64,000 nucleotides of DNA from a virus: positions 1 through 64,000 of IMG/VR virus record IMGVR_UViG_3300029914_000011; one strand, written 5' to 3'. Both the position numbers and the translations under genes were made by a program. Below are positions 673 through 58,412 of the stretch, piece by piece (the stretch's first letter is position 1; each line of letters opens with the position of its first letter). Under the pieces are notes generated by a model. That model searched no databases, was not told where the DNA came from, and worked only from the letters and a program-made list of their open reading frames with translations.

Positions 673-3600
673 TTAATTATTAACAATTGCTTGCCAAAAT
701 AATGAATAATTTGCAGTTGCTACAGGATAGTTCCATGTAGCGGTAAAACCGGTAGTTGACTGTGCAGTTATAGTAATTGGTTGAAATTCTGGATTTGTAT
801 CTGTAGAATTAAACATATTGCAAGTAACTGAATAACTTGTACTTGGCAATCCTGAACTAAAAGTAACGGATACACTTGTACCAGCACTAGAAATTGCTTG
901 AGAACCTGATCTGATACCCGCAGCAGTTAAAAGTTGAGCAGCGGTACTAGCAACCAATAGGCCCGTAGAAGTAGCAGCAACAGGTCTTGTACCAGTACCA
1001 GCTAAACCTGCTATGGTCACATTTTGTGTACTGTCAACGGTAACTGCAGTTGTTAAGGTATTGGGAGTAGCTGCACTACTTCCAGCAGCAGGAGCCGTTT
1101 GGATTATTACAGATCCGCCTGCACCCGTACCAGTAGAGTTACCACCAGCGATGGTCATAGTTGCACCGGCAGTATTGCTTGTGCCTGTTATGATAGGAGA
1201 AGGTTGAATAGATGCATTGGTCGCAGTTGCACTTCCTTTAGCGCCTTGACCAAGAAACATGCTACTGATAGGTACTGTAGGTGAACCAATACTAAATTGA
1301 CTTGCTGCTGTCGTTGTAGCTGTTGCTGTAATGCTACCAATACTGCCCAATGCTATGGAGGCAAAAGCGTTCTTTTGTCCAGAACCGATAGCGATACCAT
1401 CTGTTTCAGAAGAAGTTGTAGAACCAATCGCAATAGTCCTAAGTGAACTAGCTGAGTTTGAATTAGCGGTAAAGCCTAGGAATACGTTATCGTGACCTGA
1501 TGTTAAGGTTCCACCAGTCGTAGAGCCAACGGCTGTATTTTGTGCTCCAGTAGTAATTGTTCCAATTAAGTTTGGTAGTGATCCAAAACCGATAGCGGTA
1601 TTATCTGTAGCAACCGTATTGCTACCCAATGCAGAAGAACCTACTGCTGTATTGTCTGTACCCTGTGTATTATTGCCAAGTGCATTTTGTCCAATAGCAA
1701 CGATCGTACCTGTAGTATTTGATGCACCGGCCAAATTTCCTACTGCTGTATTATTCGCTGCAGTATTGAGTTGTAAGGCGGCAGAACCTATCGCGGTATT
1801 GCCATTATGGGTGGTTACAGCGGCAAGTGCGTTTTGTCCAATAGCAGTATTATCGGTCCCACTTGAAACAAGTATTCCGGCATCCCAACCAAAAAAACTG
1901 TTGTTTCCGCCTGCTGCTAGAGCATTACCTGCAGAAACACCTACAACGGTGTTGTGACCGCCTGTAAAAGATAGAGTGGTGTTAGTTCCACCGTATACAG
2001 AAGTATTACTAGATAAATATAAGAATCCATTACTACTTGCAGCAGTTGCCCATGCTGGTACTCCAGAAACTACTGTTAATACTTGACCAGTGGTACCGAT
2101 AGCAAGTCTAGATGCGGTATTGGTTGCAGACTCATATTCTATATCACCGGTAGTAGTCATCGGTGATAGTGCATTATATGCCGCTGCAGCAGTAGTTTGT
2201 CCAGTACCACCATTTGCTATTGGAAGAGCCGTTCCAGAAAGAGTGACCGCTAAAGTTCCAGAAGTAGTAATGGGAGAACCAGAAACACTTAAAAAAGAAG
2301 GAACGCTTAAAGCAACGCTGGTAACTGTCCCATTAGTAGCAGGATTTACCCAAGCAGGGAGACCAGAAACTACCGTCAATACTTGGCCGGTAGATCCAAT
2401 TGCTAATCTAGCCGGAGCAGGAGTTGCATTTTCATAAATAATATCACCGGCAGTTGTAAGAGGAGATAAAGCAACAAATGCTGACGCTGCGGTAGTTTGG
2501 CCAGTTCCGCCATGTGCAATTGCAATTGTTGTCCCATTCCAAGTACCAGAAGTAATGGTTCCAACAGATGATAGGCTTGATGCTGTTGTTAAGGCTGAAA
2601 GTGTGGTTAAAGTTGCATTGCTAGTTGCAACCAAAGAAGTTGCATTTCCAACTGAAGTTACGTTTCCAGTTAAGTTAGCGTTGGTAGTTACTGTACCAGC
2701 AGTAAAACTAGCAGCAGTTCCAGTGATATTTGTACCGACCAATGTGCTTGGGGTACCTAAATTTGGGGTAACTAATGTTGGAGACGTTGCGAGTACGACT
2801 GCTCCAGAACCAGTAGTTGAGGCAGCGGAAATTGCTGTTCCGTTACCCTGTAAAATACCGGTAATAGTGGTGGATACAGTTAAAGTTGTTCCGCTATATG
2901 TTCCTGCAAAACCATTTGCCGATGCCATCGACATAATTACTGCGCCATAAGCTCCATTGACAGAACTTACACCAGCAGCAGGGGTAGTGAGTTCCCATGC
3001 AGTACCGTTATAAATCGCTAGATCACCTACAGAGAAATTAAGACTAGCGCCACCGAATGCACCAGCTACTATTCCATTAAAGGCAGTACTTACGTAATAA
3101 ACTTGACCAGTAGTACCTGTTCCATCTGCAAGCGCTGGAACGTTAGTCGCTGGATCGTAAAGACCCTGGTAAACAAACACGCCATTTGGCAACTGGGCGA
3201 CTGGAACTTTTCCGCCGCTATCTAATGACGCAACGCCATTTGCGGCTCCCACTTCAGATTGCGTAACGTAAGTAGCGGATAGGCTCGGAATATCAGCGGC
3301 TACTAAAGCGCGGAAAGTGGGTTCAGCAGCAGAACCAGAACTTGGACCAGCAAATACCTTATTTGCCGTCTGAGTTTCTAAAGTAAGTGTCAAATTACCG
3401 GTGCTAGTAATTGGACTATTCGAAATCGCATAGATCGGAGTAGTACTCGCATCGGCTAAACCAACAGAAGAAACTGTACCGCTAGTCGCTGGAGTTTCCC
3501 AAGCAGGAACACCCGAAACAACGGTTAAAATTTGCCCAGTCGAACCAATTGGAAGACGTGCTGGGGCAGGAGTTGCATTTTCATAGATGATGTCTCCTTT

Positions 3601-4956
3601 TGTAGTCATTAGACCAGATGAAATCGTGGTCGTATCTACATAATTTTTAGTTGCTGCACCTTGTGCAGTGGTAGGATCAGCCATGTTGGTGATCTGATTT
3701 GCACCCATGTTGATCGCGCCTGACATTGTTCCGCCTGAAAGCAGAAGGTAAGTTGCAGATAAACTAGGAATATCAGCAGCAACCAGAGACCTAAATGTAG
3801 GTTGTGCAGCGCTTCCTGAGGAAGGTCCTGCGAAGACAGTATTCGCAGATTGAGTAGTAAGAGTCTGAGTTAAGGTACCTGAACTAGTTACTGGAGAGCC
3901 AGAAATACTATAGATTGGGGTTGTACTTGCATCAGCAAAAGCTACTGAAGTAACACCCGTAGCCGGTGCATTCGCCCATGCCGGTAAACCAGAAACGACT
4001 GTTAATATTTGACCGGTTGAACCAATACCAAGTCTTGCAGCTCCAGGAGTTGAATTTTCGTAAATAATATCGCCAGCGGTCGTCATTGGATTCGTAAATC
4101 CGCCCGAAGCCGCTTGCCATGTTGGATTCGCTCCAGCGCCATTAGATGTGAGGACGAAACCTGAAGTTCCAAGTCCAGAAACTTGTTCTAATGGACCAGT
4201 AGAAGTTGTTCCGCCTACTATGACGGCATATGGAGTGAAAGCTTCTTGTCCAGTTCCACCTTCAGGAACTGTAAGCGGAAGTTCTGTAGGACTTCCTCCT
4301 CCACCAATCCCCATCATTTGCCCGTCAATCCAAATATTTGTGGTTGACATTACGATACCGATTTTAAGATCGGCTTCGCTACCACCACTAGGGGCAACTA
4401 CGCTAAACGCACCATCGGTTGTTAGCCAAACAGGGTCACCGGTATTAATTACATTAAATGGGGTGTCCGAAGAACCTAAGGTATAAGAACCAAAAGAATA
4501 AACCGTGATATTTTGGCCAGCAGTAACGGCTGTTGTGGAGAATGCAATCCCGATTCCCCAGAATTCATCCATGCTTACAGTACTATAGTCAGCTTTATAT
4601 ACTGTATCTGTAGTTTCTGAAAGTGAATTCATTGCCCAACGAACAACAAATGAAGTATTAGCGGCAAAATTTTCGCCAGCAGTAAAAACATTGGAAATAG
4701 CAGGACAACTAGAGACTGGGGACCAGGTTAGATTACCCGAACCATCATTTTGAAGAAAAGAAGAGGCTGCACCTTGAGCTCCTGGGAGACTAACTGAATA
4801 CGCGCTTCCCGTGGCAGAAGCATTGATAGTAACACTTCCAGAAGTAGAACCTACTAGTTCTATAGCTGAAGTGCCCAAAACATTTCCGCTTACGGAGAAA
4901 TCTACTGTTCTTGGAACTCCGTTAATAAGCGATAAAATTTTACTATAAACAGTCAT
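673..4956 (-). CDS. large repeat-rich tail fibre-like protein
   Basis: A 1427-aa protein if translation starts at ATG 4956. An in-frame TTG at 4968 extends it by four codons, but GGAG lies 8 bases before the ATG, so the ATG is preferred. The N-terminal motif SKILSLINGVPRTVDF is shared with the 913-aa neighbour and probably anchors both to the same site. Five copies of a unit of the type TTAGDIIYEN..ARL.IGSTGQ.LTVVSG.PAW follow, common in phage fibre shafts. Residues about 1010-1180 form NTA(I/V)G repeats resembling the YadA-type trimeric beta-roll. A 130-residue module ending GQMMGIGG (about residues 95-225) also occurs at the C-terminus of the 913-aa protein. It probably forms a trimeric host-binding fibre. 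The C-terminal 100 residues resemble nothing I recognise. Confidence 0.85.
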   Translation of the reverse strand: MTVYSKILSLINGVPRTVDFSVSGNVLGTSAIELVGSTSGSVTINASATGSAYSVSLPGAQGAASSFLQNDGSGNLTWSPVSSCPAISNVFTAGENFAANTSFVVRWAMNSLSETTDTVYKADYSTVSMDEFWGIGIAFSTTAVTAGQNITVYSFGSYTLGSSDTPFNVINTGDPVWLTTDGAFSVVAPSGGSEADLKIGIVMSTTNIWIDGQMMGIGGGGSPTELPLTVPEGGTGQEAFTPYAVIVGGTTSTGPLEQVSGLGTSGFVLTSNGAGANPTWQAASGGFTNPMTTAGDIIYENSTPGAARLGIGSTGQILTVVSGLPAWANAPATGVTSVAFADASTTPIYSISGSPVTSSGTLTQTLTTQSANTVFAGPSSGSAAQPTFRSLVAADIPSLSATYLLLSGGTMSGAINMGANQITNMADPTTAQGAATKNYVDTTTISSGLMTTKGDIIYENATPAPARLPIGSTGQILTVVSGVPAWETPATSGTVSSVGLADASTTPIYAISNSPITSTGNLTLTLETQTANKVFAGPSSGSAAEPTFRALVAADIPSLSATYVTQSEVGAANGVASLDSGGKVPVAQLPNGVFVYQGLYDPATNVPALADGTGTTGQVYYVSTAFNGIVAGAFGGASLNFSVGDLAIYNGTAWELTTPAAGVSSVNGAYGAVIMSMASANGFAGTYSGTTLTVSTTITGILQGNGTAISAASTTGSGAVVLATSPTLVTPNLGTPSTLVGTNITGTAASFTAGTVTTNANLTGNVTSVGNATSLVATSNATLTTLSALTTASSLSSVGTITSGTWNGTTIAIAHGGTGQTTAASAFVALSPLTTAGDIIYENATPAPARLAIGSTGQVLTVVSGLPAWVNPATNGTVTSVALSVPSFLSVSGSPITTSGTLAVTLSGTALPIANGGTGQTTAAAAYNALSPMTTTGDIEYESATNTASRLAIGTTGQVLTVVSGVPAWATAASSNGFLYLSSNTSVYGGTNTTLSFTGGHNTVVGVSAGNALAAGGNNSFFGWDAGILVSSGTDNTAIGQNALAAVTTHNGNTAIGSAALQLNTAANNTAVGNLAGASNTTGTIVAIGQNALGNNTQGTDNTAVGSSALGSNTVATDNTAIGFGSLPNLIGTITTGAQNTAVGSTTGGTLTSGHDNVFLGFTANSNSASSLRTIAIGSTTSSETDGIAIGSGQKNAFASIALGSIGSITATATTTAASQFSIGSPTVPISSMFLGQGAKGSATATNASIQPSPIITGTSNTAGATMTIAGGNSTGTGAGGSVIIQTAPAAGSSAATPNTLTTAVTVDSTQNVTIAGLAGTGTRPVAATSTGLLVASTAAQLLTAAGIRSGSQAISSAGTSVSVTFSSGLPSTSYSVTCNMFNSTDTNPEFQPITITAQSTTGFTATWNYPVATANYSLFWQAIVNN

Positions 4957-5010
4957 CTTTGGCTCCAACTATGGTGTGATTAATTTCACCTTATACTTCA
5001 TATATCATGG

Positions 5011-5050
5011 AAAATAAAGTGGGGGCCACATTCTATAGGAGTGGCCCCCA
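5011..5050 (-). terminator. rho-independent terminator after 913-aa fibre gene
   Basis: A perfect 9-bp stem (GGGGGCCAC at 5021-5029 with GTGGCCCCC at 5041-5049) is followed, reading leftward, by TTTATTTT. It lies 8 bases past the stop of the 913-aa gene, so the fibre gene downstream needs its own promoter or readthrough. Confidence 0.85.
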
Positions 5051-5057
5051 GTTATTA

Positions 5058-7799
5058 TTAAGCAATTCCCATCATCTGCCCGTTGACAAATATGGTGGTC
5101 GTAGTTTCCATCATTCCAACTTTGAAATTGGCATATCCAGAAGTAGAAGGAGGGGTCATAGTAAAAGTACCAGCAGAAGACAAGTAAGCTGGTTTACCTG
5201 CAACTGCAGTACCAGTAAACGCTGTATCTCCTGATCCGAAAGTATAAGTTCCTAATGAAACTACATCGATAGGACTTCCTTGGGCAACACCGGCAGCAGA
5301 GAATGCGATACCGATAACCCAAAAATTATCTGTAGTATTAGCGTTATCACTAGCTGCGACAACTTGTCCGGCCACAAATCCTGAATCGCCAGACATTGAC
5401 ATACGAACTGCATAACTGGTGTTAGCTGCGAATGTTTGACCCGCAATGAACATTTGACTAGTAACTGGAGAACTTGCAACATATGCAGGAGTTCCAGCAC
5501 CGCCCATAATAGTAACTTGGTCAAATGCACCAGTCGCTAATTGGGTAGCAGAAACACCGGCAGCCTTGATTTCAAGGGTCCCACCAGCACCACTTTGATC
5601 AAGGGTGACGCCATCAGTAACAGTTCCTAATTTAGAAGCCGTTACTTTACCAGCACCAATAGTCGTAACACCAGCATTGCTGATGGTTACATCGCCAGTA
5701 GGTGTAACTGCTGCTGCAACGTTTGAGCCATTGCCGACAAAAATTTCACCAGAAGCTAATACGGAAGTAAGTTTGTTGTTGAATGTCGTCCAATCAGTTG
5801 ATGACAAATAACCGTTTTGAGAGCCGCTCGCTTGCGCTTGAGCGATTGAAGTTCCAGATCCAATAACTGCACCTATACCATTGGTAACGATGATGCCATC
5901 AGTTCCAACGTCGGTAAGATTACCAAATGTCAGGGCAGATTGTTTATTGTTGAAGGTAGTCCAATCAGCAGAATCTAAGGCTCCGTTTGTAGAACCTGAT
6001 GCTAATGCCAAAGATAGGATTTGACCAGAAAGACTTAGACCATTTGCAGTACCGATTGTGACATCGCCAGTATTGGTTCCACTTGAACTTCCAGAGAAGT
6101 TAGAAGCAGAAATCGCACCAGAGAAGTTAGAGGCTGCTGCAGTAATAGTTCCAGTGAAAGTAGGACTTGCACTGAAAACGACGTTTCCGCTACCTGTTGT
6201 TCCACTAACAGTTGTTCCTTGGATTTTTGCAACTGTTGCGGCTTCGGATTGTGATCCGCTAGCAGCACTTGTAGTTACATCACCAGTTAATTGATTAATC
6301 GCATTAACTGTTACGGCACCTTGAGATCCGTTAACGCTACTGACACCAGCAGCTGGGGTAACAAGTACCCATGCTGAACCATTGTAAATAACGAGATCGC
6401 CAATTTGGAAATTGGTCATCGAAGGATCGTTTAATCCGCTTACTGGACTTGCATCAGCAGCAGATACCCAATAAGTATAACCAGTAACGCCTGTACCATC
6501 TACGAGGGTAGGTGTATTGGTATTTGGATTCCAGTTACCTTTGAACTCCATGAGAGTAGCAGGGAGTTGGGAAAGAGGAACTTTTCCGCTTCCATCCAAA
6601 GAAGCTACGCCAGATGCTGCGCCGACTTCGGATTGAAGAACGTAAGTCGCAGATAATGAAGGAATATCAGCGGCTACTAAAGCTCTAAATGTAGGTTGTG
6701 CTGCACTTCCTGAAGCAGGACCGGCGAACACTGCATTCGCGGATTGCGTTTCAAGAGTAATAGCAAGAGTTCCAGTGCTTGTAACTGGGCTACCACTGAT
6801 AGAATAGATCGGAGTAGTGCTATCATCAGCAAAAGCAACGCTGGTAACTGTACCGCTAGTCGCTGGACTTGCCCATGAAGGGGTACCACTACCAGAAACG
6901 GTGAGAACTTGGCCAGTAGTACCAATAGCGAGTCTAGATGCAGTATTAGTTGCACTTTCATACTCGATATCGCCTTTTGTGGTCATTGGGCTTAAAGCAT
7001 TATATGCTGCAGCAGCCGTTGATTGGCCAGTACCACCGTTTGCAATTGGAAGAATTCCAGATACTTGGCTAGTAAGAGCAATAGATCCAGATAATTGTGA
7101 AGTAGGTAAACTTAATGCTGAAAGAGTCGTTAAAGTTGAATTGGATGTAGCAACTAAACTAGTGGCAAAACTACCAGCAGTTGTTGTAATGTCACCAGTC
7201 AATGCTGGGAAATTTGAAGCCTGGATAGTCCCAGTTAACTGAGAGGTTGGGAGACTTAAACTTGACAGAGTAGTCAATGTTGAATTGCTAGTTGCTGTAA
7301 TGTTTGAAGCAGTACCGGTCGTATTCTGATTTAAAGTAGGAATATCAGCGGCTACAATTGCTCTAAATGTAGGAGCGCCACTTGATCCATTAGGAGCAGC
7401 AAAGAATGTATTGGCAGCCTGACTAGCAAGAACAGCTGTCAAAGTACCACTAGAAGTAATTGGGGAAACCGTAACCGTGAAAACGCTAGAAGGAAGACTA
7501 AGGCCTACGCTGGTAACTGAACCGGCAGAAGCACTGGCCCAACTTAATACGCCTGTTCCATCGTTGGATAATACGTAACCAGAAGAAGCCGCCTGAGCAG
7601 GTGGCAATGTGAGTGTATAGGTACTTGTTACTGCTGAAGCATTGAGAATTACATTTCCCGATGTAGAGCCATTTAATTCGATATTACCGGATACATCTAA
7701 GCCCCCAGCAACGGTTAAGATGTTGTTAGCATTGGAGAAATCGACCGTTCGAGGTACGCCGTTAATAAGCGATAAAAGCTTAGATACATAATTTGCCAT
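5058..7799 (-). CDS. tail fibre-like protein (913 aa)
   Basis: The N-terminus (YVSKLLSLINGVPRTVDF) matches that of the next fibre protein, so the two are paralogues in their attachment region. The body holds shaft repeats of the type TTKGDIEYESATNTASRLAI..TGQVLTVSG and TSNSTLTTLSSLSLPTSQL, plus two SSTDWTTFNNK-type units. The C-terminal 130 residues (from about 780) form the module that ends GQMMGIA and that sits near the N-terminus in the 1427-aa protein. An SD-like AAAGGA lies about 11 bases before the ATG. It is presumably a virion fibre or fibre-connector protein. Two tandem fibres sharing an anchor but differing in the rest suggest alternative receptors, which is inference. Confidence 0.85.
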   Translation of the reverse strand: MANYVSKLLSLINGVPRTVDFSNANNILTVAGGLDVSGNIELNGSTSGNVILNASAVTSTYTLTLPPAQAASSGYVLSNDGTGVLSWASASAGSVTSVGLSLPSSVFTVTVSPITSSGTLTAVLASQAANTFFAAPNGSSGAPTFRAIVAADIPTLNQNTTGTASNITATSNSTLTTLSSLSLPTSQLTGTIQASNFPALTGDITTTAGSFATSLVATSNSTLTTLSALSLPTSQLSGSIALTSQVSGILPIANGGTGQSTAAAAYNALSPMTTKGDIEYESATNTASRLAIGTTGQVLTVSGSGTPSWASPATSGTVTSVAFADDSTTPIYSISGSPVTSTGTLAITLETQSANAVFAGPASGSAAQPTFRALVAADIPSLSATYVLQSEVGAASGVASLDGSGKVPLSQLPATLMEFKGNWNPNTNTPTLVDGTGVTGYTYWVSAADASPVSGLNDPSMTNFQIGDLVIYNGSAWVLVTPAAGVSSVNGSQGAVTVNAINQLTGDVTTSAASGSQSEAATVAKIQGTTVSGTTGSGNVVFSASPTFTGTITAAASNFSGAISASNFSGSSSGTNTGDVTIGTANGLSLSGQILSLALASGSTNGALDSADWTTFNNKQSALTFGNLTDVGTDGIIVTNGIGAVIGSGTSIAQAQASGSQNGYLSSTDWTTFNNKLTSVLASGEIFVGNGSNVAAAVTPTGDVTISNAGVTTIGAGKVTASKLGTVTDGVTLDQSGAGGTLEIKAAGVSATQLATGAFDQVTIMGGAGTPAYVASSPVTSQMFIAGQTFAANTSYAVRMSMSGDSGFVAGQVVAASDNANTTDNFWVIGIAFSAAGVAQGSPIDVVSLGTYTFGSGDTAFTGTAVAGKPAYLSSAGTFTMTPPSTSGYANFKVGMMETTTTIFVNGQMMGIA

Positions 7800-7913: not shown

Positions 7914-8363
7914 CTACAATGTTGCTACCATTTGAGTAAATAGGGCTATATCTATCTCAGAAGGATTGGCTTCATTAGGGACTAAAACGCCCATAAAAAT
8001 TACCATATCGCCGCTTACAAACCCATTTACTCCAACTGAAGGAATGATATTTGTAGGATTTCCGTTCGTATCTATATAAAGCGCGGTTCCAATGGCATAA
8101 GAAGTGGTGATATTCTGTAAGCGACCATTTGCGATAATTGGTCCTTGAGCAGAAGCTGGTATGCGGACATTAGCGTAACCCACGAAATTTTGCCAACTTG
8201 CCTGATTTGAAACATCCAAAGGAACTAATGTTCCTGAATTGTTAATTGAACACGCCTGAGCTTGAGGAATCGCAACGCTCGCTGAAAAATTGGTATAATC
8301 AGTTACTAGTGAAGTTGCACTACCTAAACTCTCTGGATTAAAACTGAAAGGAGTATATGACAT
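7914..8363 (-). CDS. small virion protein, unknown
   Basis: 149 aa from ATG 8363, which lies two bases beyond the stop of the collagen-like gene. An upstream in-frame ATG at 8387 would overlap that gene by 23 bases and is less likely. The protein (MSYTPFSFNPESLGSATSLV...) is beta-rich, without cysteine clusters or membrane segments. The stretch VGYANVRIPASAQGPII resembles small decoration or capsid-stabilising proteins, but I cannot name a family. Its place in the late cluster indicates a structural role. Confidence 0.7.
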   Translation of the reverse strand: MSYTPFSFNPESLGSATSLVTDYTNFSASVAIPQAQACSINNSGTLVPLDVSNQASWQNFVGYANVRIPASAQGPIIANGRLQNITTSYAIGTALYIDTNGNPTNIIPSVGVNGFVSGDMVIFMGVLVPNEANPSEIDIALFTQMVATL

Positions 8364-52572: not shown

Positions 52573-53334
52573 TTATTTGATTAAATTTAGGACGCTCAAT
52601 ACAATCGGATCAATAGCCATATTTGATCGAACTTTGATCCTAAATATTTTCCACCCATTTTCTATGGCCCATTGATCTTTTTCGTCTTCGTATTCTTTAA
52701 CACATTGATATCCGTGACCTAATCCATCGAATTCGATTAGGATTTTAGTATCAAATAAGGCAAGATCGTAAATAAAATTCCCCATTCCGAATTCAAACTC
52801 GTGCCGTATTTCCTTTATATCTAAAATATTTTTTATTTCCTGATATTTCCAGGCCTCTCTGAGTTTAAGAGCTTCTTTCGGAGAAATGAGATTGCTTAAT
52901 GCTTTCTGTTTAAATATTGGATCTACCCTTATTTTTTCTTTCATCGTATCTGACAGCTTTTTACGACTCTCTTCTGTGTGATCTCTAGAATGGCGCACGT
53001 AGAGGCAGTTTTTGGCGCTACAAAATTTATTGTCTCTTTCTTTAAACGATAAGGGATTTTTACAGTTTACACAGAATTTAGGATTAGCACAATATATGCG
53101 TATTGTTTCAAAAAGCTCTTTTCCTCTACGTTCTTTCATGTATTTGGATATACTACTGTACCCATTTGCGGCTCGTTTGTTGGCCGCTGCTTGTTTTTGA
53201 TTTTTTGTTTCTTCGGAAAGTAAGGGATTATCTGGATATTTAACAGCGAACTGTTCTAGAGACATATCGTGCATTTTTAAATGAGAATTTGTCAATTGTT
53301 TAAAATTTCTACTACAAATGGGACAACTGATCAT
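52573..53334 (-). CDS. Vsr/PD-(D/E)XK-like homing endonuclease with zinc finger
   Basis: 253 aa. Residues 1-35 resemble the Ros/MucR finger (CPICSRNFKQLTNSHLKMHD). A second cluster (CVNCKNPL, KFCSAKNC) lies at about 88-110. The C-terminal half is Vsr/DUF559-like: RHEFEFGMGNFIYDLALFD, ILIEFDGLGHGY and a trailing WAIENGWKIFRIK. The catalytic pattern would be E...D...E-x-D-G. Free-standing genes of this kind often mark the neighbouring gene as a homing site. Here it sits 40 bases from the tmRNA and just beyond the interrupted tRNA. Confidence 0.78.
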   Translation of the reverse strand: MISCPICSRNFKQLTNSHLKMHDMSLEQFAVKYPDNPLLSEETKNQKQAAANKRAANGYSSISKYMKERRGKELFETIRIYCANPKFCVNCKNPLSFKERDNKFCSAKNCLYVRHSRDHTEESRKKLSDTMKEKIRVDPIFKQKALSNLISPKEALKLREAWKYQEIKNILDIKEIRHEFEFGMGNFIYDLALFDTKILIEFDGLGHGYQCVKEYEDEKDQWAIENGWKIFRIKVRSNMAIDPIVLSVLNLIK

Positions 53335-56016: not shown

Positions 56017-56352
56017 TTAAAGAACCGTATTTTGATATGCTTGGGTTACAGCGCGGCTAAGACGGCTTGTAGTCGTATTATCAGTTTTTTCGTTACCGAA
56101 TGTGCGGCCTACCGCTTGGGCAACCTGAAGAGCTGTTACTGGAGTTTTGTTGGTAAGCAGGTATCCGCCACCCGGACCACGAACAGAGGTGACAATCCCG
56201 GCTGTACGGAGATTGCGCATTACTTGTTCGAGAAAATTGGTTGTTGTTCCAACTTTAACCGCCAAGTCTTGTGTACGAACAGGTTCTGTTCCAAGAGTTT
56301 TAAGTGATTCTACTGCTTTGATTCCTAGTTCTAGTTTCTTATTCAATTTCAT
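56017..56352 (-). CDS. Rrf2-like winged-helix regulator
   Basis: 111 aa. Residues 1-80 match Rrf2 proteins: KKLELGIKAVESLKTL, RTQDLAVKVGTTTNFLEQVM (recognition helix region) and GIVTSVRGPGGGYLL (wing, the GPGGG signature). The Fe-S cysteines of IscR/RsrR-type members are absent, so it would be a metal-free DNA binder. Probably controls phage or host genes; phage examples are uncommon. Confidence 0.78.
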   Translation of the reverse strand: MKLNKKLELGIKAVESLKTLGTEPVRTQDLAVKVGTTTNFLEQVMRNLRTAGIVTSVRGPGGGYLLTNKTPVTALQVAQAVGRTFGNEKTDNTTTSRLSRAVTQAYQNTVL

Positions 56353-57725: not shown

Positions 57726-58412
57726 TTAGAGCTTTTTACTAAATCTATCCATTTTCATTTCTTTCCACAGGGCAAGAAAATCGCGTCTCGCTTTGGCTCG
57801 ATACGCTCTCCACATTCTCTGCTTCATGTGGGCGGAAGGAAGGGTAAGAGCGTTAGAGGGCAAAAGGGAAGTCCTCACCAGGCGGAAGCCGATGTAGAAG
57901 TAGCGAAGGCCAGCGTCGCCGTTGCTGCGCTGGGCGGAACGCAAGAACAGCGGATCGCCGTACCAACTGCCCCCGCGAAGCACGCGGTACGAACTATCCT
58001 TGAACCATAAATCTTGGCACCATTCCCAAACATTTCCATGCATATCGTAAAGGCCGAATTTATTAGGCTTCTTTAAGCCTACCGAATGGACTTTATTGCC
58101 TGAATTTGTGTAGAACCATGCATAATCTTCTAATTCTTTTTCGTCATTGCCGAAGCAGAAATCGGTTGTACTGCCTGCTCTGCAGGCATATTCCCATTCT
58201 TCTTCAGTAGGGAGTCGGTAGGTATATTTTCCTTTTTTGGAGTTCACTTTACTTAGGAATTCCTGAACATCGTTCCAGGAGACTTGTTCGACTGGATTTT
58301 TATTGCCTTTAAAGTAAGATGGATTATTTCCCATTACTTTTTGCCATTCAACTTGGGTGCATTGATAGACAGACATTTCAAAATCTTTACCGGGTATTTT
58401 AACGAATTTCAT
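57726..58412 (-). CDS. FGE/C-type-lectin-fold protein, likely DGR target
   Basis: 228 aa of the formylglycine-generating-enzyme-like fold: YQCTQVEWQKVMGNNPSYF, NPVEQVSWNDVQEF, YRLPTEEEWEYACRAGS, LYDMHGNVWEWCQD and RVLRGGSWYGDPLFLRSAQR then IGFRLV. This fold with the closing RGGSW...GFRLV is the standard target of diversity-generating retroelements. The segment encoding residues 143-180 is GC-rich (41 of 60 bases at 57901-57960) in an AT-rich gene. Unlike typical targets, 48 residues follow the variable region (HMKQRMWRAYRAKARRD), a basic tail. No signal peptide or fibre stalk is present, so how it reaches the surface is unclear. Confidence 0.85.
   Translation of the reverse strand: MKFVKIPGKDFEMSVYQCTQVEWQKVMGNNPSYFKGNKNPVEQVSWNDVQEFLSKVNSKKGKYTYRLPTEEEWEYACRAGSTTDFCFGNDEKELEDYAWFYTNSGNKVHSVGLKKPNKFGLYDMHGNVWEWCQDLWFKDSSYRVLRGGSWYGDPLFLRSAQRSNGDAGLRYFYIGFRLVRTSLLPSNALTLPSAHMKQRMWRAYRAKARRDFLALWKEMKMDRFSKKL
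57873..57986 (-). other. candidate DGR variable region
   Basis: Encodes residues 143-180 of the FGE-fold protein. Fourteen codons lie at the positions that are AAY in typical DGR templates (residues 151-153, 155-156, 161, 163-166, 169, 171-173); ten end in C and two in T, as expected if AAC or AAT codons were mutated at A. Invariant blocks RVLRGGSW, LRSA and IGFRLVR separate them. No template copy or reverse transcriptase is visible in the window. Confidence 0.75.

Follow-up and report, generated by a model that had tools for sequence, protein, structure and literature searches.

Known phage diversity-generating retroelements (DGRs) are self-contained and retarget tail tips. Bordetella phage BPP-1 carries a reverse transcriptase (RT), Avd and a template, and diversifies its tail-fibre protein. 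A more dispersed arrangement is described for cyanobacteria, whose remote DGR targets lie far from the RT within the genome of the same cell (Vallota-Eastman et al., 2020, PMC7517822). Remote targets escape the detection method of Roux et al., 2021, by its own statement. Among crAss-like phages a DGR target is conserved even where the DGR is missing (Morozova et al., 2020, via PMC8867640). According to a published proposal (Dore et al., 2024, PMC10907252), C-type-lectin (CLec) DGR targets of multicellular bacteria sense antigens as parts of conflict systems. In Nostoc punctiforme a DGR target is expressed together with a MoxR gene, and mutation at adenines has been observed in culture (PMC12691664). 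Among the openly licensed PMC papers listed by our searches, no title or abstract opening describes a phage-borne target of a host DGR; earlier reports may exist.

We analyzed a phage gene that an earlier note, made from the letters alone, had called a DGR target without a visible retroelement. The gene lies in a stretch of 64,000 nucleotides of an IMG/VR virus record, referred to here as the window.

A C-type-lectin gene with a GC-rich 3' block

The complete record, a linear sequence of 96,304 bp that shows no end repeats, is possibly a fragment. It encodes a tail sheath, baseplate proteins, the large subunit of ribonucleotide reductase, a nucleotidyltransferase and an RNA ligase, a gene set that indicates a contractile-tailed phage, and has a GC content of 0.36-0.45 in 2-kb windows. 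Positions 673-7799 of the window hold large ORFs with many diverged direct repeats (copies of 27-300 nt), and the product of 52573-53334 weakly matches an HNH endonuclease PHROG (E 2e-5).

The reading frame was found exactly as the earlier note had placed it (Table 1). PF03781 (FGE-sulfatase, E 4.1e-39, residues 13-180) was the sole Pfam domain of the product, and the gene belongs to phrog_18508 (E 1.5e-46). The DGR variable protein TvpA (2y3c) was the best PDB match by sequence (E 2.7e-28), ahead of PvdO and the FGE enzymes, as well as by fold (E 4.9e-12), the latter for a model with a mean pLDDT of 69 and values below 50 over most of the variable region (VR). Domain and structural matches thus bear out the proposed FGE/C-lectin fold. 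The catalytic cysteine pair of the formylglycine-generating enzyme sits in a C-terminal motif; no such pair was found in the window protein, whose residues 143-228 are free of cysteine. Homologous genes in NC_008562.1, KF356199.1 and MN013189.1 are labelled (serine/threonine) kinases, as is phrog_18508 itself, and Pfam detected PF03781 alone and no protein kinase domain in the window protein.

Table 1. Features of the window gene. Positions refer to the window.
Feature	Position	Strand	Details
CDS, 228-aa FGE-like C-type-lectin protein, putative DGR variable protein	57726..58412	-	stop codon 57726-57728
GC change-point	57991		five bases before codon 143; near the start of template/VR homology (LRGGSW) in the Microcystis FD4 DGR
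Variable-region-like block, codons 143-180, RVLRGGSW...GFRLVR	57873..57986	-	GC 0.667; gene upstream GC 0.38
Pyrimidine-rich tract 3' of the VR, read through as TSLLPSNALTLPSAHM	57825..57872	-	C+T 79% over 48 nt
Rest of C-terminal tail, residues 197-228	57729..57824	-	mostly predicted helix (model helix 194-218)

The gene lies outside the tail cluster. Its supposed setting among small early genes was not borne out by a Pfam scan of seven nearby ORFs, six of which had no match at E 0.01 while one encodes an Rrf2-type regulator. This phage-encoded regulator (window 56017-56352, PF02082, E 6.3e-17) lies about 1.4 kb from the target gene.

The proposed RGGSW...LRSA...GFRLV frame is present, in the extended form RVLRGGSW...LRSA.R...GFRLVR, and the GC-rich block within an AT-rich gene was likewise recovered (Table 1). 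Including the block itself, 0.044% of the 114-mers in the 64 kb reach its GC content. A two-change-point fit gave a GC content of 0.38 before 57991, 0.60 for 57765-57991 and 0.23 after. We aligned the block by eye to the template of the Microcystis aeruginosa FD4 DGR described below, which set 13 variable columns facing AAY codons of the template. NNY codons occupy 12 of these 13 columns, and C is the third base in 10; relative to codons 1-141 of the same gene, binomial P is 0.003 for the pyrimidine endings and 1.5e-4 for the C endings. The VR contains no disrupting stop. The earlier note had counted NNC or NNT at 12 of 14 positions; the excess holds, and the count differs with the choice of variable columns. 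Codon endings alone are nevertheless weak evidence in this block, because its constant codons are GC-rich as well (GC3 19/23).

The pyrimidine content of the tract that follows the VR is matched by 0.023% of 48-mers. A tract of this kind also follows the VR in the FD4 target and in four VR-type genes of the betaproteobacterial MAG KTt_bin-1310, and is absent after the FD4 template: the best 40-mer pyrimidine fraction is 0.85 in the window gene, 0.925 in the FD4 target, 0.70-0.825 in the KTt genes and 0.525 after the FD4 template. The FD4 and KTt targets have their stop codon before or inside the tract, whereas the window frame reads through it. This read-through accounts for part of the 48-residue tail that had been noted as unusual, namely residues 181-196.

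Searches for a reverse transcriptase and a template

A profile search with RVT_1 gave no match in the 96,304-bp record, which extends the reported absence of an RT beyond the 64 kb. Nor did the record hold a template or a second VR copy: the best match of the masked VR elsewhere was 39/84, and 20 shuffled masks gave 36-42. The search suggested in the earlier note, for a near-copy of 57873-57986 and an RT, therefore returned neither in the whole record. A sister contig (IMGVR_UViG_3300029922_001797) differs at two positions in 40,684 bp (62097 and 62609), has an identical VR and belongs to a record in which RVT_1 again found no match. Being this close, it is uninformative on diversification.

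In plasmid and phage records blastn gave no match to a template for the window VR. Four patterns run against viral contigs returned the sister contig and chance matches only; matches such as L053/L054 and L226 were rejected as chance matches in GC-rich DNA. When bacterial and archaeal genomes were scanned for the window VR pattern, 12 stretches were obtained. Eight of them are FGE-like genes without the window-type C-terminal end, and the other four belong to KTt_bin-1310. The four KTt genes start like the window VR (GTGCTTCGCGGGGGC), encode RVLRGGSW (or GGW)...LRSA.R...GFRLARTLLTP (or LLIP), have an R-T-L end with a pyrimidine tract that is similar to the window gene's, and differ from one another mostly at NNY-type codons. 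The MAG encodes an RT above the Pfam cut-off and an Avd-like ORF below it (32.5 of 40 bits). On its contig 350, at about 477-2823, an AAC-rich template lies between the Avd-like ORF (PF22296 below cut-off) and the RT, and the end of an upstream PEP-CTERM-like ORF shows a similar frame.

We rejected KTt_bin-1310 as the direct source of the window VR: the VR type is the same, but many non-variable bases differ. The template between its Avd-like ORF and RT was rejected as well, being AAC-rich and of another template type. A search of 399 genomes from the KTt order gave matches at E 0.01 in 41 of them, the best being in KTt itself (79% over 61 bases). KTt (E 6e-8) and an FGE-type gene at locus L069 (E 1.1e-5, 70% over about 115 bases) stood out among nine loci inspected, and the remaining loci were chance matches. 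None of the nine was close enough to be the source template for the window VR.

Variable regions of Microcystis phages and a host-type template

The window protein matched 22 of 50,697 phage records, best among them Microcystis phages (Fukuivirus) and Mic1, with 47-53% amino acid identity to their proteins. Between LMM01, MaMV-DC and MaMV-CH01 protein identity is 83-85%, with the differences concentrated in the VR. Two IMG/VR searches contributed 10 and 78 loci; the second recognized 316 relatives in 393 pattern-matched stretches and retained the best 80. These loci and the phage records amounted to 187 gene instances, overlapping loci counted twice, and 90 distinct proteins, with many genes in tandem arrays. 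A single phage contig can hold a tandem run of as many as five FGE/CLec genes whose VRs differ (L099, L100, L103, L137 and other cyanophage loci). We tabulated variable codons for VRs of the commonest length only (27 of 50 used, of 55 distinct). In these 27 VRs the first and second bases varied and the third was nearly fixed (for example C in 26 of 27), and upstream of the VRs C stood at 17% of third positions (1367/8132).

No RVT_1 match above the cut-off was found in 41 records of relatives, for which longer contigs had been chosen and which include five isolated-phage genomes deposited complete, nor in four further records (LMM01, MaMV-CH01, Mic1 and that of the window). Weak matches in four of the 41 (11.4-11.6 bits against a cut-off of 29.6) were rejected as RTs. 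A crude RT motif scan of 24 fetched stretches, with L246 and L247 among the loci, also found none.

A blastn search with one phage VR matched 10 of 72,556 plasmid records. Two of these are Microcystis plasmids, in which the best match fell in unannotated DNA. In plasmid p1FD4 of M. aeruginosa FD4 (NZ_CP046974.1) this DNA is a DGR template. It spans 8001-8112, translates as RLRGGSWGNNPNNCRSAIRNNNNRRDNRNNNNGFRVVC and is flanked by an RT gene and an FGE gene. The avd gene is located upstream, and Pfam confirmed both RT and avd (RVT_1, bAvd). The FD4 target mismatches the template at 14 of 29 adenines and at 0 of 79 other bases, and the two begin to agree at LRGGSW. Genes for a MoxR ATPase and a SAV_2336-type protein adjoin this DGR.

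The FD4 template matched 10 of 50,697 phage records, all of them from phages of Microcystis (nine named for Microcystis and one 'Cyanophage MaMV-DH01'; two phages occur twice). The template itself was found in none of 44 phage records, where the best match was 88%, a level at which a diverged template may still be present. Compared with this host-type template, which comes from one Microcystis plasmid and not from the phages' own host strains, the LMM01 VR (NC_008562.1 41686-41798) mismatched at 18/29 adenines and 3/84 other bases (P 1e-10). The corresponding values were 17/30 and 1/84 for L112 (an 84-kb contig), 13/30 and 1/89 for L203, and 16/29 and 8/84 for MaMV-DC. For L246 (12/29 and 0/83) and L247 (13/29 and 0/83) the low non-adenine mismatch is partly built in, as the pattern that found these two fixes part of the constant bases; the same applies to all matches of that pattern, which showed 32/1409 non-adenine mismatches in 17 distinct alignments. 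This bias is absent from the LMM01, L112, L203 and MaMV-DC comparisons, from the search of the 44 phage records and from the search that yielded the 10 phage records. L246 is a Fukuivirus, since 86% of its 14,344 bases align with MaMV-CH01 at 90.8% identity, and its VR gene falls into the same PHROG as the window gene, phrog_18508. As the VRs of LMM01, L246 and L247 differ from the template almost only at adenines, Microcystis phage genes, judged from sequence, carry VRs written from a Microcystis-type template. When 68 distinct VRs were each compared with the better of two plasmid templates, 54 had less than 20% non-adenine mismatch (pooled, 840/1587 adenines against 378/4017 other bases), while 14 exceeded 20%, including the VR of Mic1 and, through the sister contig, that of the window.

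Pairs of phages differ in how far VR and flanks diverge; the figures that follow are from pairs whose VR positions were checked for correspondence, another pair set having partly aligned tandem-array paralogs. L246 and L247 differ at 382/10,415 flanking bases (3.7%) and at 11/75 VR positions, and LMM01 and MaMV-DC, in the same gene, at 99/3011 (3.3%) and 21/75. L247 and L250 have the same VR despite a flank difference of 297/8457 (3.5%), and L232 and L246 differ at 1/75 VR positions and 227/6893 flanking bases. Over 54 pairs of close relatives with at least 95% upstream identity the median VR identity was 0.97. Because close relatives so often share their VRs, as L247 and L250 do, either rewriting of Microcystis phage VRs would be occasional or rare, or VRs would also spread by recombination. 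At the Fukuivirus locus direct retrohoming in trans appears to be the simpler reading, since the alternative, recombination, which is also possible, would need repeated exact capture of the VR alone.

Other viral copies have a different look. Over the 84 nt that start at GGTTTTCGG and take in the pyrimidine tract, L203 (IMGVR_UViG_3300044640_003163, near 221-339) is identical to the FD4 target. L236, similar to L203, keeps an FD4-like target 3' end with the tract. Both are likely captured host genes, with VRs that may have been written in the host. L246, L247 and L112 have no pyrimidine tract and retain GGTTTTCGGGTAGTCTGCG. The phage status of L112 rests on IMG/VR: 7.9 kb of this contig match no phage record, and PHROGs matched one of eight ORFs, weakly.

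Origin and possible role of the window gene

The fold, the VR frame, a GC island that begins where template homology begins, the tract after the VR and the template-like phage VRs within the family all argue that the window gene descends from a DGR target, which we regard as highly probable. Understood as a statement of descent, the claim of a DGR target without a visible retroelement is well supported by these sequence features. The further suggestion of service in trans has good support from sequence in the Microcystis phages; for the window gene the template was not found, and we lean only slightly towards its VR being served in trans, now or recently. Homology, the shared PHROG, the VR frame, the GC island and the post-VR tract suggest that the gene is most likely a member of the Microcystis-phage class, written from another template of higher GC content. 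The Microcystis template itself was rejected as the source: compared through the VR of the sister contig, the window VR has 16/71 non-adenine mismatches (23%), a fit that does not surpass that of FGE genes in other phages. In non-cyanophage records such genes (L110, L016, L161, L142, L141 and L015) gave 17-46%.

The gene could instead be a relic. Its VR would have been written once in a bacterial chromosome, the 3' half of the gene recombined into the phage, and diversification then ended. A GC island that extends past the VR to about 57765, as expected for the captured end of a cellular gene with its tract, fits such a history, as do the frame that reads through into the tail and the failure to find a template. 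Host target ends do enter viral contigs (L203, L236), and a cellular precedent is described in all3226 of Nostoc PCC 7120 (PMC7517822). The identical VR of the only close relative would fit too, but that sister contig is too close to inform. The VR has kept 12 of 13 NNY positions and no stop, which speaks against a relic. On balance we think a relic unlikely, while taking it seriously.

A history without any DGR, in which an ordinary FGE-like C-type-lectin gene received a GC-rich segment by recombination, strikes us as improbable. FGE-like genes are common in viral contigs (the 316 relatives among 393 stretches), L016 and L141 have a similar C-terminal frame and fit neither template used, and the NNY excess is moderate in a block whose GC3 is high anyway. 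Such a history sits poorly with a nearest solved protein that is a DGR variable protein, with a GC jump placed right at the VR start, with a post-VR tract that DGR-type targets share and whose pyrimidine content 0.023% of 48-mers reach, and with a VR start that is the same as in four VR-type paralogs of one MAG. That the phage has its own DGR on a missing part of the genome, as a linear record without end repeats would allow, is very improbable given a VR GC content far from that of the phage and the genomes deposited complete (LMM01, MaMV-DC, MaMV-CH01 and others) that have targets and no RVT_1 match above the cut-off.

We return to a phage-borne target that has no DGR of its own. The window gene would encode a variable protein whose VR is written in trans, the template being supplied by a bacterial DGR that most likely belongs to a host. 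The RT of the infected cell would copy the RNA of this template, making errors at adenines, and the resulting cDNA would replace the homologous 3' part of the phage gene; in the Microcystis phages the host would write the VR directly into the phage gene. The product may be a binding protein that works inside the cell against the host's CLec-based sensor or conflict systems, as a decoy, a competitor or a re-tuned binder. With its single domain, and open to rewriting by the same machine, the phage copy would be suited to the role of decoy or competitor. Put together, we tentatively propose that phages carry 'bait' genes which the host DGR rewrites during infection, diversifying an intracellular binding protein that plausibly jams or re-tunes the CLec-domain sensors diversified for defence by the same retroelement, and that the window gene is one of them, in a phage whose host has a template of higher GC content.

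By sequence, phage genomes without a detectable RT carry VRs that match a host-type template except at adenines. Surveys that require an RT beside the target miss phage-borne remote targets. If writing occurs in trans, the parasite is itself a substrate of its host's diversification system, a prospect that can be tested with isolated phages of the LMM01 group, and the proposal, if true, would link phages to DGR-based sensor immunity as it has been proposed.

The window gene resembles the cyanobacterial remote variable proteins in its FGE/CLec C-terminal domain, in a VR near the 3' end and in a target far from an RT (PMC7517822). It differs in that the cyanobacterial targets lie on the genome of the cell and the window target on a phage, and the available portion of that study names no phage-borne remote target (PMC7517822). 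TvpA, variable protein 1 of the Treponema denticola DGR and the top match by sequence and fold, is a bacterial outer-membrane lipoprotein, whereas its counterpart in the window is short, phage-encoded and ends in a helical tail. As with mtd of Bordetella phage BPP-1 and the targets of other phage DGRs, a phage gene bears the DGR-variable region; unlike in BPP-1, no RT was found in the window phage, and the gene stands apart from the tail cluster. The crAss-like target is a tail-collar fibre, and the accessible text on it does not mention writing by a host DGR (PMC8867640). On the host side, the FD4 DGR sits beside MoxR ATPase and SAV_2336-type genes, as in MoxR ternary conflict systems (PMC10907252). 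In the account of Dore et al. the CLec domains are sensors of the host (PMC10907252); here, a homologous domain is carried by the attacker.
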